Both the position numbers and the translations under genes were made by a program. From NCBI GenBank assembly GCA_009379895.1, contig WHSW01000019.1:1-32487 (forward strand): a DNA stretch of 32,487 nt, given 5' to 3'. The DNA comes from Solirubrobacterales bacterium (GTDB taxonomy: Bacteria > Actinomycetota > Thermoleophilia > Solirubrobacterales > 70-9). The notes under the pieces are model-generated. The model was given only the letters and a program-made list of their open reading frames with translations. It was not told the origin of the DNA and did no database searches. Below, in pieces: positions 18,675 through 24,309 of this stretch. Positions within the stretch are counted from its first letter, which is position 1; every line of letters starts with the position of its first letter.

Positions 18675-19079
18675 ATGTCGGAGGAGAACCTCGAGATCAT
18701 CCGCCGGATCTATTGCCGGACGCTTCGGCTCGACCCCGAGCTATTGGCGGCGCTCGGCGAGCTTGCCGCGCCCGACGCGGCGTTCGATTTCACCGACGCC
18801 TACCCCGACGGGCCAGTGGTGAGAGGCGTCGAACGGGTGCGCCGGATCGCTGCCAACTGGCCGTGGGGCGCGCTGCACTTCGAGCCGGAGCGCTTCATCG
18901 ATGTCGACGCCGAGCGGGTGCTGGTGTTCATCCGGGCGACCGCCACGGGGGTCGGGAGCGGCGTTCCGGTCGAGCGCCGGACCGCCCACGAGTGCACGTT
19001 CAGAGGGGGGCGCCTCGTGCGCTTCAAGGTGTATTCCGATCGGGAAGAGGCCCTCGAGGTCGCCGGGCTTCAGGAGTAG
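18675..19079 (+). CDS. SnoaL-like / NTF2-fold protein
   Basis: This 134-residue protein has the pattern of small NTF2-like (SnoaL-like) proteins. An N-terminal helix SEENLEIIRRIYC is followed by LAAPDAAFDFTDAYPDG, a beta-sheet region with HFEPERFIDVDAERVLVFIRA, and HECTFRGGRLVRFKVYSDREEALEVAGL at the end. The fold serves both as enzyme (isomerase, cyclase) and as ligand-binding partner, so no reaction can be named. Members ending in this way are abundant in actinobacteria. It lies 18 bp upstream of the LuxR-type regulator in the same direction and is probably co-transcribed with it. Confidence 0.82.
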   Translation: MSEENLEIIRRIYCRTLRLDPELLAALGELAAPDAAFDFTDAYPDGPVVRGVERVRRIAANWPWGALHFEPERFIDVDAERVLVFIRATATGVGSGVPVERRTAHECTFRGGRLVRFKVYSDREEALEVAGLQE

Positions 19080-19097: not shown

Positions 19098-20735
19098 GTG
19101 GAGCCAGGGCATGAGCTGGAACGCGGCCGCGAGGCACTCGGCGCAGGGTCATGGCTCGCAGCGGCAGAGCTGCTTACGCGTTCCGATCGCGAATCGCCCC
19201 TCGGCGCCGCCGACCTCGAGCTGCTGGCGACGGCGGCATACATGCTCGGCCGCGACGACGAGTACCGGTCGACGCTCGAGCGCGCTCACCACGCCCACCT
19301 CGAGGCCGCCGAGACGGAGCCCGCAGTTCGATGCGCGTTCTGGCTCGGGCTTGCCCTGCTCCTGCAGGGACAGACGGCCCCCGCGACCGGCTGGTTCGCG
19401 CGCGCCGAGCGGATCTTCGAGGGCGAGGGCATCGACTCGGTCGAGCGGGGCTACCTCCTGATCCCCGGGCTCCTGCAGCGGAGTGCGGCAGGCGATCATG
19501 ACGGCGCCCGCGCGATCGCCTGGCAGGCCGCCGCGATCGGCGCCCGCTTCGGCGACCGCGACCTGCAGGCACTCGTAGTTCAGGAGCAGGGCCACGCCCT
19601 GGTCAGGTTGGGGCGCGCCGAGGAGGGCCTGCGCTTGGTCGATGAGGTCATGCTCGCGGTCACCTCGGGGGACCTCTCACCGATCGTCACCGGTCTCGTC
19701 TACTGCAACACGATCGCGTTCTGTCAGAGCGTCTACGAGCTCCGCCGCGCCCGCGAGTGGACCGACGCGCTCTCGCGCTGGTGCGAGCAGCAGCCCGACA
19801 TGGTCGCTCACACCGGCGTCTGCCTCGTCCATCGCGCCGAGATCCTGCAGCTGCGCGGCGCCTGGGAGGAGGCGCTCGAGGAGGCCCGGCGCGCCGGCGA
19901 GCGATTCACGCTCGGAAACTACGACGCGCAGGCGGACGCGCGGGCCCGCTACCGCCAGGGTGAGGTCCACCGCCTCAAGGGAGACTTCGCGCTCGCCGAA
20001 GAGGCCTACCGCGAGGCGAGCTCGGGCGGCTGGGAGCCGCAGCCCGGCCTCGCCCTCCTGCGGCTCGCCGAGGGAGACGGCGCCGCTGCCGTGGCTTCGA
20101 TCCGGCGCGTGATCGGGGAGACGGCCGACCCCCTTGAACGTGCCGGGCTGATCGCGGCGCGGGTGGAGATCATGATCGCCATCGGTAAGGCCGGCGATGC
20201 CCGCGGCGATTGCGCCGAGCTCGAGCGGACCGCCGAGCACCAGGGCAGCTGGGTGCTGGGCGCGATGTCGTGCCAAGCCAGGGGCGCGGTCGAGCTCGAC
20301 GCCGACGAGGCGGCGGAGGCGCTGGTTTCGCTGCGCCGGGCGTGGCGGATGTGGCGGCAGCTCGAGGCGCCGTATGAGGCCGCGCGGGTGCGCGAGCTAA
20401 TCGGCCTGGCCTGTCGCGAGCTCGACGACAACGACGGCGCGGCGATGGAGCTGGAGGCGGCGCGGGCGGCCTTCGAGACACTCGGCGCGCGGCCCGACCT
20501 GGCCCGGGTCGAAGCCCTGCCCGGCGCGGCCGAGCCCGAAGCCCACGGCCTCACCGCCCGTGAGCGCGAGGTCCTGCGCCTGGTCGCGGACGGGCGCACC
20601 AACAAGGCGATCGCGGCCGAGCTGGTCCTCAGCGAGCGCACGATTGATCGCCATGTCAGCAACATCTTCGCCAAGGTCGGCGTCTCCTCGCGTGCCTCGG
20701 CGACTGCCTTCGCCTACGAGCACGACCTCGTCTGA
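19098..20735 (+). CDS. LuxR-type transcriptional regulator with long TPR-like sensor region
   Basis: The 545-residue protein has about 470 residues of helical, Ala/Glu/Leu-rich repeats resembling tetratricopeptides (for example RARYRQGEVHRLKGDFALAEEAYREA), then a C-terminal GerE/LuxR helix-turn-helix: LTAREREVLRLVADG, TNKAIAAELVLSERTIDRHVSNIF and KVGVSSRASATAFAYEHDLV. There is no N-terminal AAA/STAND ATPase domain and no receiver, so the signal probably enters through the repeat region. The start is a GTG at 19098. It precedes, by 122 bp, the alpha/beta-hydrolase, FAD oxidoreductase and MBL genes and is the likely regulator of that block. Confidence 0.87.
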   Translation: MEPGHELERGREALGAGSWLAAAELLTRSDRESPLGAADLELLATAAYMLGRDDEYRSTLERAHHAHLEAAETEPAVRCAFWLGLALLLQGQTAPATGWFARAERIFEGEGIDSVERGYLLIPGLLQRSAAGDHDGARAIAWQAAAIGARFGDRDLQALVVQEQGHALVRLGRAEEGLRLVDEVMLAVTSGDLSPIVTGLVYCNTIAFCQSVYELRRAREWTDALSRWCEQQPDMVAHTGVCLVHRAEILQLRGAWEEALEEARRAGERFTLGNYDAQADARARYRQGEVHRLKGDFALAEEAYREASSGGWEPQPGLALLRLAEGDGAAAVASIRRVIGETADPLERAGLIAARVEIMIAIGKAGDARGDCAELERTAEHQGSWVLGAMSCQARGAVELDADEAAEALVSLRRAWRMWRQLEAPYEAARVRELIGLACRELDDNDGAAMELEAARAAFETLGARPDLARVEALPGAAEPEAHGLTAREREVLRLVADGRTNKAIAAELVLSERTIDRHVSNIFAKVGVSSRASATAFAYEHDLV

Positions 20736-20857: not shown

Positions 20858-21760
20858 GTGACGACCCCGACCCAGCCTGAACGGCCCGCCACTGCCACTG
20901 CTACCGCGCTCGAGGCGCGCGCGCGGCTCGTCGGAGCTCTGCCCGTGGACGAGATCCGCCTCGAGATCGAAGGGATCTCGACCGTGCTGCTCGCGGGCGG
21001 CGACGGGCCGCCGATCGTGTTCCTGCACGGCCCCGGCGGCAACGCCGCGCACTGGATGCGCGTGATCCCGGACCTCGTCGCCACGAATCGGGTGATCGCC
21101 CCCGACCTCCCCGGCCAGGGCGCGTCGGAGCTCGACGAGGCGCCGCTCGACGGCGAGCGGGCGCTGGCCTGGCTCGGCGCCCTGATCGAGGAGACGTGCG
21201 AGCCGCCGCCGGCCCTCGTCGGCAACGCGCTCGGCGGCGCGATCGCCGCCCGCTTCGCCGCTCGCGCGGGTGAGCGGGTCGGACGTCTCGTCCTCGTCGA
21301 TGCGCTCGGGCTCGCCGACTTCGACCCCGCGCCGCCGTTCGGGGCGGCTCTCGACGAGTTCCTCAACGCGCCCGGCGAGCAGACTCATGACGGCCTCTGG
21401 GCTCACTGCGCGCATGATCTCGACCGCCTCCGTGGCGACATGGGCGACGGCTGGGACCGGTTCAAGGCCTACAACGTCGATCGCGCCACCACGCCGAGCG
21501 TCGCGGCCGCACTCGGTGCGTTGATGGGGGAGTTCGGATTCCCCGCGATCCCGGCGGCGGAGCTCGAACGAATCGCTGTCCCGACGAGCGTGATCTGGGG
21601 CCACCACGATCTCGCCACCCGGCTCGCAGCCGCCGAATCCGCGTGCGAGCGCTACGGCTGGCCCCTGCGAGTGATCGAAGACTGCGCCGACGATCCACCT
21701 GTCGAACAACCCGAGGCCTTCCTGGCCGCGCTCCGCGAGGCGCTCGGGGAGGATCGATGA
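20858..21760 (+). CDS. Alpha/beta-hydrolase-fold protein lacking the catalytic nucleophile
   Basis: The 300-residue protein has a full alpha/beta-hydrolase layout: the oxyanion-hole strand PPIVFLHGPGGNAAHW, RVIAPDLPGQGAS, a nucleophile elbow, an acid-strand VIWGHHDLATRL and the closing VEQPEAFLAALREAL. The elbow reads VGNALGGAIA, so the Ser of G-x-S-x-G is Ala124. At the catalytic-His position, where relatives have GH before the P-x-x-EQP segment, there is Ala-Asp (277-278). Only the acid Asp251 remains. A classical esterase activity is therefore unlikely; ligand binding, lyase or cofactor-free chemistry is possible. GTG start with GAAGGAG 6 bases upstream; its stop overlaps the oxidoreductase start by 4 bp. 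Confidence 0.85.
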   Translation: MTTPTQPERPATATATALEARARLVGALPVDEIRLEIEGISTVLLAGGDGPPIVFLHGPGGNAAHWMRVIPDLVATNRVIAPDLPGQGASELDEAPLDGERALAWLGALIEETCEPPPALVGNALGGAIAARFAARAGERVGRLVLVDALGLADFDPAPPFGAALDEFLNAPGEQTHDGLWAHCAHDLDRLRGDMGDGWDRFKAYNVDRATTPSVAAALGALMGEFGFPAIPAAELERIAVPTSVIWGHHDLATRLAAAESACERYGWPLRVIEDCADDPPVEQPEAFLAALREALGEDR

Positions 21761-23184
21761 GCACCGCCGCCAGTCAGGCATTCACCGTCGACGATCGGGC
21801 CGTCGAGGCGCTCGGCCGCCGTCTGAACGGGTTGTTGCTGACCGCGCAGAGCCCGGAGTTCGAGGACGCGACGCGACTGTGGAACGGATTGATTCGCAAA
21901 ACACCGGAGCTGGTCGTCCGGCCGGCGGACACCGCCGACGTCCAGGCGGCGGTCGGATTCGCGCATGAGCACGGCCTCGCGGTCTCCGTGCGCGGCGGCG
22001 GCCACAATATCGCCGGGACGGCGCTGGCCGAGGGCGGCCTGACCGTCGACATGTCGCAGCGGCGCGCCGTGATCGTCGACCCGCAGGCACGAACGGCGAT
22101 CGTCGAGCCCGGATGCCTGCTCGCCGACGTCGACCGCGAGACGCAGGCCCATGGCCTCGCCACGCCGCTCGGCTTCATCTCGGAGGTCGGCGTCGCCGGT
22201 CTCACCCTGGGCGGTGGACTCGGCTATCTGACCCGCCGCTTCGGCTGGACGGTCGACAATCTGCTCGAGGTCGAGATCGTCACCGCCGATGGGCGCACAC
22301 TCGAGGCGAGCCGCGAGCGAAACGAGGACCTCTTCTGGGCGATCCGCGGCGCCGGTGCGAACCTTGGCGTTGTCACCTCGCTGACCCTGCGTCTGCACGA
22401 GGTCGGCCCCGCCGTCTACGGCGGCCTGATCGCCTGGCCGTTCGAGCGCGCGCGCGAGATCCTCGAGGCCTACCGGTCGCTGACCGCGACGGCGCCGCGG
22501 GAGCTGGCGGTATGGATGAATCTGCTGCGGGCCCCGGCGGCGCCGTTCGTCCCCGAGGCCTGGCAGGGAGAGCTGGTCGCGGCGATGGCCGTCTGTTACA
22601 GCGGCGACCTCGGTGCGGCCGGCGAGGCGCTGGCGCCGATCCGAGCGCTGCCCGACCCGGTGATCGAGCTTCTGGCCGAGCAGCCTTACACCCAGATGCA
22701 GTCCTACCTCGACGACGGCGAGCCGAAGGGTGATCACTACTACTGGCGCTCCGACTACGCCGCCGGGCTCTCCGACGAACTGCTAGAGACCTGGCGCGAG
22801 TTGGCGGCCGAATGCCCGATCCCGAGGGCGCAGATGGGACTGCTTCACCTCGGCGGGGCGCTGAACGAGTGCGATCACGACGACGGAGCGGTCGGCAATC
22901 GTGACGCTCGCTTCGCCCTCGGCGCGATCGGCATCTGGGACCCGGACGAGGCCGGGGCCGATTCGTTCCCGCAATGGATCCGCGAGGCAGGAGACCGATT
23001 CCGTCCCTTCTCGACCGGCGGCAGCTACATCAACTTCCAGACCGACGATGAGGGCGCCGACCGCGTGCGCGCGATGTACGGAAGGAACTTTGAGCGCCTA
23101 CTGGAGATCAAGCGGCGCTATGACCCCGACAACCTCTTCCGCTCGAACCGGAACATCGATCCGGCTCGCGGCGGGCACCGCTAA
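21757..23184 (+). CDS. FAD-binding oxidoreductase of the berberine bridge/VAO type
   Basis: This 475-residue flavoenzyme oxidises an unknown small molecule, probably a sugar, alcohol or polyketide-like substrate. The FAD_binding_4 domain shows PADTADVQAAVGFAHEHG and SVRGGGHNIAG, in which His83 is the expected covalent 8-alpha-histidyl FAD site, then GLTLGGGLGYLTRRFGW and EIVTADGRTLEAS. The C-terminal BBE motif RRYDPDNLFRSNRNIDP is intact. The second covalent position, a Cys in bicovalent relatives, is replaced by Ser in GFISEVGVAGL, so a single His link is expected. The ATG at 21757 overlaps the stop of the hydrolase-fold gene by 4 bp, making these two a translational pair. Confidence 0.92.
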   Translation: MSTAASQAFTVDDRAVEALGRRLNGLLLTAQSPEFEDATRLWNGLIRKTPELVVRPADTADVQAAVGFAHEHGLAVSVRGGGHNIAGTALAEGGLTVDMSQRRAVIVDPQARTAIVEPGCLLADVDRETQAHGLATPLGFISEVGVAGLTLGGGLGYLTRRFGWTVDNLLEVEIVTADGRTLEASRERNEDLFWAIRGAGANLGVVTSLTLRLHEVGPAVYGGLIAWPFERAREILEAYRSLTATAPRELAVWMNLLRAPAAPFVPEAWQGELVAAMAVCYSGDLGAAGEALAPIRALPDPVIELLAEQPYTQMQSYLDDGEPKGDHYYWRSDYAAGLSDELLETWRELAAECPIPRAQMGLLHLGGALNECDHDDGAVGNRDARFALGAIGIWDPDEAGADSFPQWIREAGDRFRPFSTGGSYINFQTDDEGADRVRAMYGRNFERLLEIKRRYDPDNLFRSNRNIDPARGGHR

Positions 23185-23214: not shown

Positions 23215-24309
23215 GTGACAGCTCTCTTCTCCACCGTCGAACCCCTCCATCCGGCGCCCTCGCGCTACCAGGGTGGCCTGACCGAGGCCGGCGCCGGCGT
23301 TCACGCCTGGCTCCAGCCGAACGGGCTCCTGGGTGAGAGCAATGCCGCGCTCCTGATCGGCGCCGGGAGCTCGCTGCTGATCGACACGCTCTGGGACCCG
23401 ACGCTCACTCGCCGGATGCTCGCGGCGATCGCGCCCCTGGTCGCCGAGGCGCCGATCGAGACCCTCGTCAACACTCACTCCGACGGCGACCATTGGTGGG
23501 GAAATCAGGAGGTGGTGGGCGCCGAGATCATCGCCACCGAGGCCGCCTCGGCCGTTATGCAGACTCAGACGCCGGGCGAGATCAAGCGCTTTCGCGCGCT
23601 CGCGCGCGGATTGGGCCTCGCCGGTTCGAGCGCGATTCCGTATCCGCGCCGCAAGGAGACGGCCGTCGTCGCCGCCTACGTGGGCGAGGCGCTGAGGCCG
23701 TTCGGCTTCGACGATGTGCGGTTGACACCGCCGACACGCACGTTCTCCGGCCGGCTCGAGCTCGACATCGGTGGGCGCGTGGTGGAGCTGATCGAGGTCG
23801 GCCCCGCGCATACCCCCGGCGATCTGATCGTCTGGATCCCGGACGCTCGCGTTGCGATCGCCGCCGACATCCTCTTCATCGGCGTCACCCCGATCATGTG
23901 GGCCGGCCCGATCGAGGGCTGGATCGCCGCGCTCGAGCTGCTGCTCGACCTCGGGGCGGAGCGATTCGTTCCCGGCCACGGACCGATCTGCGGCGCCGAC
24001 GAGGTTGGCCGCTTGATCGACTATTGGCGCTGGCTAGAGCGGGCCGCCGGAGGCCGGCTCGCCGACGGGAGCGCACCCGCCGAGGTGGCGCGCGCGTTGG
24101 TCCTCGGCGACGAGATCGTCGCGGCGGGCTTTGCCGACTGGCTCGGGCCGGAGCGCGCGCTCGTCAATGTGCGGACGATCGATGCCCACCGGCGCGCGGC
24201 CGCCAAGCTTCCCGGCCCGCGCGAGATCGTCGATGCCTTCTTTCGCATGGCGCTCCTCGCGCACGACTTCGATGCCCGCCGAGCGTCCGTTCATGGTGGC
24301 GAGCGTTGA
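23215..24309 (+). CDS. MBL-fold metallo-hydrolase
   Basis: The 364-residue protein is a metallo-beta-lactamase-fold hydrolase. The metal motif is VNTHSDGDHWWGN (residues 85-97), which has His88-x-Asp90-x-Asp92-His93 instead of the usual HxHxDH. Later ligands are in VGPAHTPGDLIVW, VAIAADILFIG and RFVPGHGPICG. This variant is common in a subgroup of actinobacterial MBL proteins of unknown substrate. The C-terminal 90 residues after the core are helical. The GTG at 23215 is 30 bp after the oxidoreductase stop, so it probably closes the same operon. A role in hydrolysing the oxidised product, such as a lactone or ester, is a guess from context. Confidence 0.88.
   Translation: MTALFSTVEPLHPAPSRYQGGLTEAGAGVHAWLQPNGLLGESNAALLIGAGSSLLIDTLWDPTLTRRMLAAIAPLVAEAPIETLVNTHSDGDHWWGNQEVVGAEIIATEAASAVMQTQTPGEIKRFRALARGLGLAGSSAIPYPRRKETAVVAAYVGEALRPFGFDDVRLTPPTRTFSGRLELDIGGRVVELIEVGPAHTPGDLIVWIPDARVAIAADILFIGVTPIMWAGPIEGWIAALELLLDLGAERFVPGHGPICGADEVGRLIDYWRWLERAAGGRLADGSAPAEVARALVLGDEIVAAGFADWLGPERALVNVRTIDAHRRAAAKLPGPREIVDAFFRMALLAHDFDARRASVHGGER

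Follow-up and report, generated by a model that had tools for sequence, protein, structure and literature searches.

A conserved alpha/beta-hydrolase-fold subfamily lacking the catalytic Ser and His: a candidate non-hydrolytic protein of LuxR-headed gene cassettes

The stretch of DNA analysed here in its entirety (the window; 32,487 nucleotides of contig WHSW01000019.1, assembly GCA_009379895.1, from a Solirubrobacterales bacterium) encodes a protein of the alpha/beta-hydrolase fold in which neither the nucleophilic Ser nor the catalytic His is present, and we conclude that this protein and its Ser-less homologues constitute a genuine new subfamily within a known fold. The best reading is of a re-purposed, non-hydrolytic active site within a LuxR-headed cassette of tailoring-type enzymes. 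The fuller explanation, of a conserved non-hydrolytic subfamily whose rebuilt pocket serves small-molecule chemistry in such a cassette, is the best overall, and we give it about an even chance of being right.

The altered active site

The gene (20858-21760, plus strand, as for all window features below) is intact, opening with GTG at 20858 and closing with its last codon at 21755-21757 and a TGA stop at 21758-21760, and its inverted repeats look as expected of GC-rich sequence. The 300-residue product matches Abhydrolase_6 (PF12697, 71 bits) and Abhydrolase_1 (PF00561, 62 bits) above their curated cut-offs, and a structure model (pTM 0.69) retrieves many alpha/beta-hydrolase entries of the PDB at probability 1.00, which establishes membership of the fold. 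None of the NCBIfam models reaches its own cut-off on this protein, placing it outside every named NCBIfam family. The model was built from three sequences and can be used in the core, but its quality in the cap is low (pLDDT below 50 across most of residues 180-222), and no geometry was taken from it.

The meta-cleavage-product C-C hydrolases, a family of which a cap Arg is a feature, include the closest solved relatives found by profile search, CarC (1J1I, E 8e-28) and HsaD (E ~1e-23), the group being also among the top fold matches, and the window protein has its core, acid, oxyanion loop and cap layout in common with CarC, HsaD and BphD. In a profile alignment with checked residue numbers, Ala124, Asp251 and Asp278 correspond to HsaD Ser114, Asp241 and His269, with Trp199 in place of the cap residue Arg192 and Cys184 aligned without a gap to Met177; the signature Ser, His and cap Arg of the C-C hydrolases are thus all missing. 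The Ala lies in the nucleophile elbow, LVGNALGGA (residues 120-128; 21215-21241), and after strand 8 the protein reads V-I-E-D-C-A277-D278-D279-P, in which the segment E-D-C-A-D278-D279-P (21677-21697) replaces the catalytic His loop and Asp278 stands where His is expected. The oxyanion loop HGPGG and the acid Asp251 are retained. An earlier note on this DNA had read Ala124 for Ser, Ala-Asp (277-278) at the His position, and a kept oxyanion part and acid in an unbroken frame, all of which the alignment bears out. By coincidence, HsaD entry 2wud has Ala at 114 and reads the same GNALGG.

Cys184 (codon 21407-21409) lies in the cap, and because the model is weak there its placement in the pocket is predicted from the sequence alignment. 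In HsaD, a docking study put the equivalent Met177 among the residues contacting the reactive ring of the inhibitor beside Ser114 (PMC5603573).

A single switch in a patchy family

Relatives were sought in the window's own genome and 100 of its relatives, in draws from its class, phylum and order (399, 396 and 232 genomes, respectively), in the groups around other matches, in a named genome collection and among plasmids. With the window included, this gave 28 complete family members, together with fragments; 23 are Ser-less and five (L051, L052, L053, L054 and L163) keep the Ser. The 22 further complete Ser-less homologues, at 43-65% identity, are spread over several groups of bacteria, one plasmid of Sinorhizobium and plasmids of haloarchaea. 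The family is present in 16 of the 396 genomes of the phylum draw and absent from the other genomes searched in the window's own taxonomic family, and in the plasmid collection it is carried by plasmids of Sinorhizobium meliloti, Haloterrigena and Halorussus, that collection being the source of the haloarchaeal members. Because members are both patchy and plasmid-borne, horizontal spread is likely; the viral contigs searched held no relatives. Gene calls at the related loci came from a simple script and were homology-checked only for the genes reported here.

Position 124 is occupied in the Ser-less proteins by Leu, Val, Ala, Gly, Thr, Ile or Met, the hydrophobic Leu, Val, Ile or Met in most of them, and in none of the 23 does the elbow offer a hydrolase nucleophile (Ser, Cys or Asp). 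The catalytic His after strand 8 is equally absent (His278 in 0/23), and the acid after strand 7, Asp251, is invariant (23/23). So is Cys184 (23/23), with Asp279 in 22 (Met in L045) and Asp278 in 21 (Asn in L040, Ala in L162). In contrast, all eight Ser-retaining sequences compared (five family members and three outgroups) have His278, and none has Cys184. The earlier note had proposed asking whether the elbow Ala is conserved; the Ala itself varies, but the lack of Ser there is conserved, along with Cys184 and Asp278/Asp279. That note had not remarked that fixation of Cys184 and Asp279 accompanied the loss of the Ser-His pair.

In a tree of the family all 23 Ser-less proteins fall on one side of a single branch, and in a tree calculated without the elbow, Cys184 and His-loop columns they form one clade (support 95/90), with one change needed in 95% of the bootstrap trees. 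Since they form one clade, the Ser-His switch occurred once. Because the switch is a single event, counting rows offers no test of the link between Cys184 and the loss of Ser; on these alignments the informative part is the later invariance of Cys184. Pairwise dN/dS among relatives is 0.17-0.38, indicating purifying selection by a simple method in which dS is probably underestimated at high GC. One Ser-retaining relative (L163:4982-5788), 52% identical to the window protein, has both Ser and His, lacks Cys184 and has a methyltransferase upstream, making it a good ancestral-type comparison.

These data bear directly on whether the window gene is simply an ordinary hydrolase that has decayed or been mis-sequenced or misassembled. 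The assembly is fragmented, with 610 contigs and 88% completeness, so a binning error at the window is possible, with the family result unaffected, and both the contig number and the absence of the gene from searched genomes of its own taxonomic family would fit decay or error. The 22 other complete homologues nevertheless share the loss, in intact frames and under purifying selection, and on this ground we reject the idea, which we rate as next to impossible. The catalytic residues might also have migrated, with Cys184 serving as nucleophile or an Asp replacing the His, and the fixation of Cys184 and Asp278/Asp279 when Ser and His were lost would suit such a hidden hydrolase. Against this, the alignment puts Cys184 on the cap, away from the oxyanion hole, and the bulk of members fill the elbow with Leu, Val, Ile or Met; we regard retained hydrolysis as very unlikely.

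Known functional classes of the fold fare no better. A haloalkane dehalogenase or epoxide hydrolase is ruled out for all 23 by an elbow without Asp and the missing catalytic His, and a C-C hydrolase by the lack of His (as well as of Ser or Arg). The cofactor-free dioxygenases HOD, QDO and AqdC resemble what we propose for the window protein in that they put the fold to work outside hydrolysis and can do without the nucleophile, AqdC carrying a natural elbow Ala, but HOD and AqdC need a His-Asp dyad as general base (PMC10548524). As QDO likewise requires the dyad and the His is missing in 23/23 Ser-less members, a dioxygenase of the HOD/AqdC type is excluded too. The earlier note's broader suggestion of a non-hydrolytic use of the fold is upheld to the extent that the absence of Ser and His in 23 of 23 makes this a conserved non-hydrolase candidate.

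Partner enzymes and LuxR-headed cassettes

The ATG of the next gene, at 21757, overlaps the stop codon of the window gene as ATGA, and that gene encodes a 475-residue BBE-type FAD oxidase (21757-23184; Pfam FAD_binding_4 and BBE). The overlap makes translational coupling to the flavoenzyme likely, as the earlier note had said; its further step, that the gene is therefore expressed, goes from gene overlap to expression and stands only as a deduction. Thirty bases 3' of the oxidase is a gene for a metallo-beta-lactamase-fold protein (23215-24309; Pfam), possibly co-transcribed in the same operon, of which no homologue was seen in the related loci; it resembles SoxH-related models below their cut-offs.

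The oxidases of the window, L009, L013 (L013:8955-10343) and L131 are 55-64% identical to one another and at most 46% identical to paralogues. Among solved structures the window oxidase is closest to EncM (E 1e-96), a flavin-N5-oxide BBE-like oxygenase whose FAD-linking His aligns with His83 of the window oxidase, kept in an RGGGH motif. The second linkage site lacks a Cys, and the sequence suggests a single covalent FAD link through His83. The EncM pocket residue Thr139 is replaced by Val144 in the alignment, and Glu355, likewise a pocket residue, by Gly362; because these positions differ, EncM chemistry is not to be assumed for the window oxidase. L013 also has Val at the Thr139 position, and L009 and L131 have Thr, the two Val sequences being too few to build on. 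The T139V variant of EncM showed oxidase activity (PMC7662398).

A BBE-type oxidase accompanies the Ser-less protein at only three of the 23 loci, the window, L009 (as neighbour) and L013 (as fusion). The commonest partner, at 11 loci, is a UbiE-like or class I methyltransferase, fused in L014 and L035 and separate in L036, L037, L040, L043, L046, L047, L049, L160 and L162; L050 has an FMO-like enzyme, six loci (L010, L039, L041, L044, L045 and L048) have no recognised partner and two (L042 and L161) are cut by the contig end. Three loci have an additional, smaller class I methyltransferase, placed directly after the Ser-less gene at L036:8843-9457 and L040:4029-4637 and after the first methyltransferase at L043:9057-9647. 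The proposal in the earlier note of a dedicated partner of a BBE-type oxidase does not survive these counts, nor is the pairing exclusive from the side of the oxidase, for at L131 the same BBE subfamily lies behind a regulator of the same kind with no Ser-less protein. The outcome that the note had named as fatal to its reading, homologues in a BBE context with normal Ser and His, was not encountered; the L013 fusion and the L009 neighbour both lack the two residues.

The main rival to a catalytic role takes its strength from this gene organization. The Ser-less protein may be a binding-only pseudoenzyme subunit that presents substrate to, or stabilises, the oxidase or methyltransferase. GID1, neuroligins and NDRG are examples of non-catalytic receptors or binding proteins of this fold, which recognise a specific ligand or protein without hydrolysis. 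In-frame natural fusions join it to both kinds of partner (a BBE oxidase in L013, methyltransferases at either end in L014 and L035), the start/stop junctions at the methyltransferase loci are as tight as that in the window, and most members have a hydrophobic residue at the nucleophile site. However, the strictly conserved pocket Cys and acids exceed the needs of a scaffold, both the BBE and the methyltransferase subfamily can be found behind the same LuxR at loci with no Ser-less protein, and the six loci without a recognised partner disfavour a purely accessory role. We judge the binding-only subunit a real but minority possibility.

Upstream in the window lies a gene for a 545-residue TPR-LuxR transcriptional regulator (19098-20735; Pfam), itself preceded by one for a SnoaL-like small protein (18675-19079; Pfam). 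The regulator is a conserved neighbour of the family, found upstream in the same direction at 19 of the 23 Ser-less loci; an FMO-like gene intervenes in L050 and ∼1.1 kb without a recognised gene in L009. The regulators of related loci are 44-60% identical to that of the window, compared with only 30% for its best paralogue in its own genome. This subfamily (window 19098-20735; L090-L139) heads small cassettes in which the enzymes are interchangeable. Downstream of it may lie an FMO-like enzyme, a methyltransferase, an acyl-CoA dehydrogenase-like enzyme, a triad-bearing hydrolase (L125) or a BBE oxidase without a Ser-less protein (L131), and from this variety we conclude that it heads small cassettes combining several enzyme subfamilies. 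Two loci (L053:5794-7880 and L054:2117-4143) have the order LuxR, FMO-like enzyme, triad-bearing hydrolase relative, and their FMO matches the ArsO and MSMEG_0569 models below cut-off.

The constancy of one LuxR subfamily upstream raises the thought that the Ser-less protein might sense a ligand and control the adjoining regulator, by analogy with the E. coli esterase Aes, which inhibits the LuxR-type regulator MalT by direct interaction (PMC10427625). Yet Aes acts through the nucleotide-binding part of MalT (PMC10427625), and the regulators of the window type give no Pfam match for such an ATPase domain. Furthermore, the fusions join enzymes and none was seen to the regulator, the haloarchaeal members keep the methyltransferase and lack LuxR, and most carriers of the LuxR family have no Ser-less protein (68 versus 16 of the 396 genomes in the phylum draw for the LuxR and the Ser-less/triad protein families, respectively). 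Co-regulation of this kind seems to us improbable.

A putative non-hydrolytic role and its significance

We therefore return to a rebuilt, non-hydrolytic active site as the preferred reading. The alignment and tree show that a single ancestral event removed the Ser-His pair and fixed the cap residue Cys184 and Asp278/Asp279 beside the retained Asp251. The rebuilt pocket may still bind a small molecule, and the most likely activity would be non-hydrolytic acid-base chemistry, such as isomerisation, cyclisation, decarboxylation or similar. Catalysis is suggested by the conserved residues, with the proviso that a binding-only role would conserve a pocket too. The partner enzyme would act on the same compound, before or after the Ser-less protein; this would be the BBE-type flavin oxidase in the window and usually a SAM methyltransferase in the relatives, with none recognised in some. 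The gene is adjacent to the regulator and would be controlled within the TPR-LuxR-headed cassette. More tentatively, and in our estimation as a minority possibility, the Cys184/Asp251/Asp278-Asp279 group could define a new enzyme type, able to bind a metal or a cationic substrate and to carry out a step other than hydrolysis, and combined in modular fashion with flavin oxidases as well as methyltransferases under regulators of a single family.

The members from Haloterrigena and Halorussus carry the annotation 'alpha/beta hydrolase', and for the Ser-less members the database name 'hydrolase' is probably wrong. Neither the family nor the gene combination was found in the open-licence literature, which is weak evidence of novelty. 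Together these data describe a clade, with members in both bacteria and haloarchaea, that lost the two catalytic residues in a single switch and fixed a new Cys and Asp, predicted from the alignment to lie in the pocket. Because close relatives such as L163 and L051 keep the ordinary triad, the route from hydrolase to non-hydrolase is directly testable across one branch. The loci also indicate that small cassettes headed by a LuxR regulator, with interchangeable tailoring-type enzymes, form a family.
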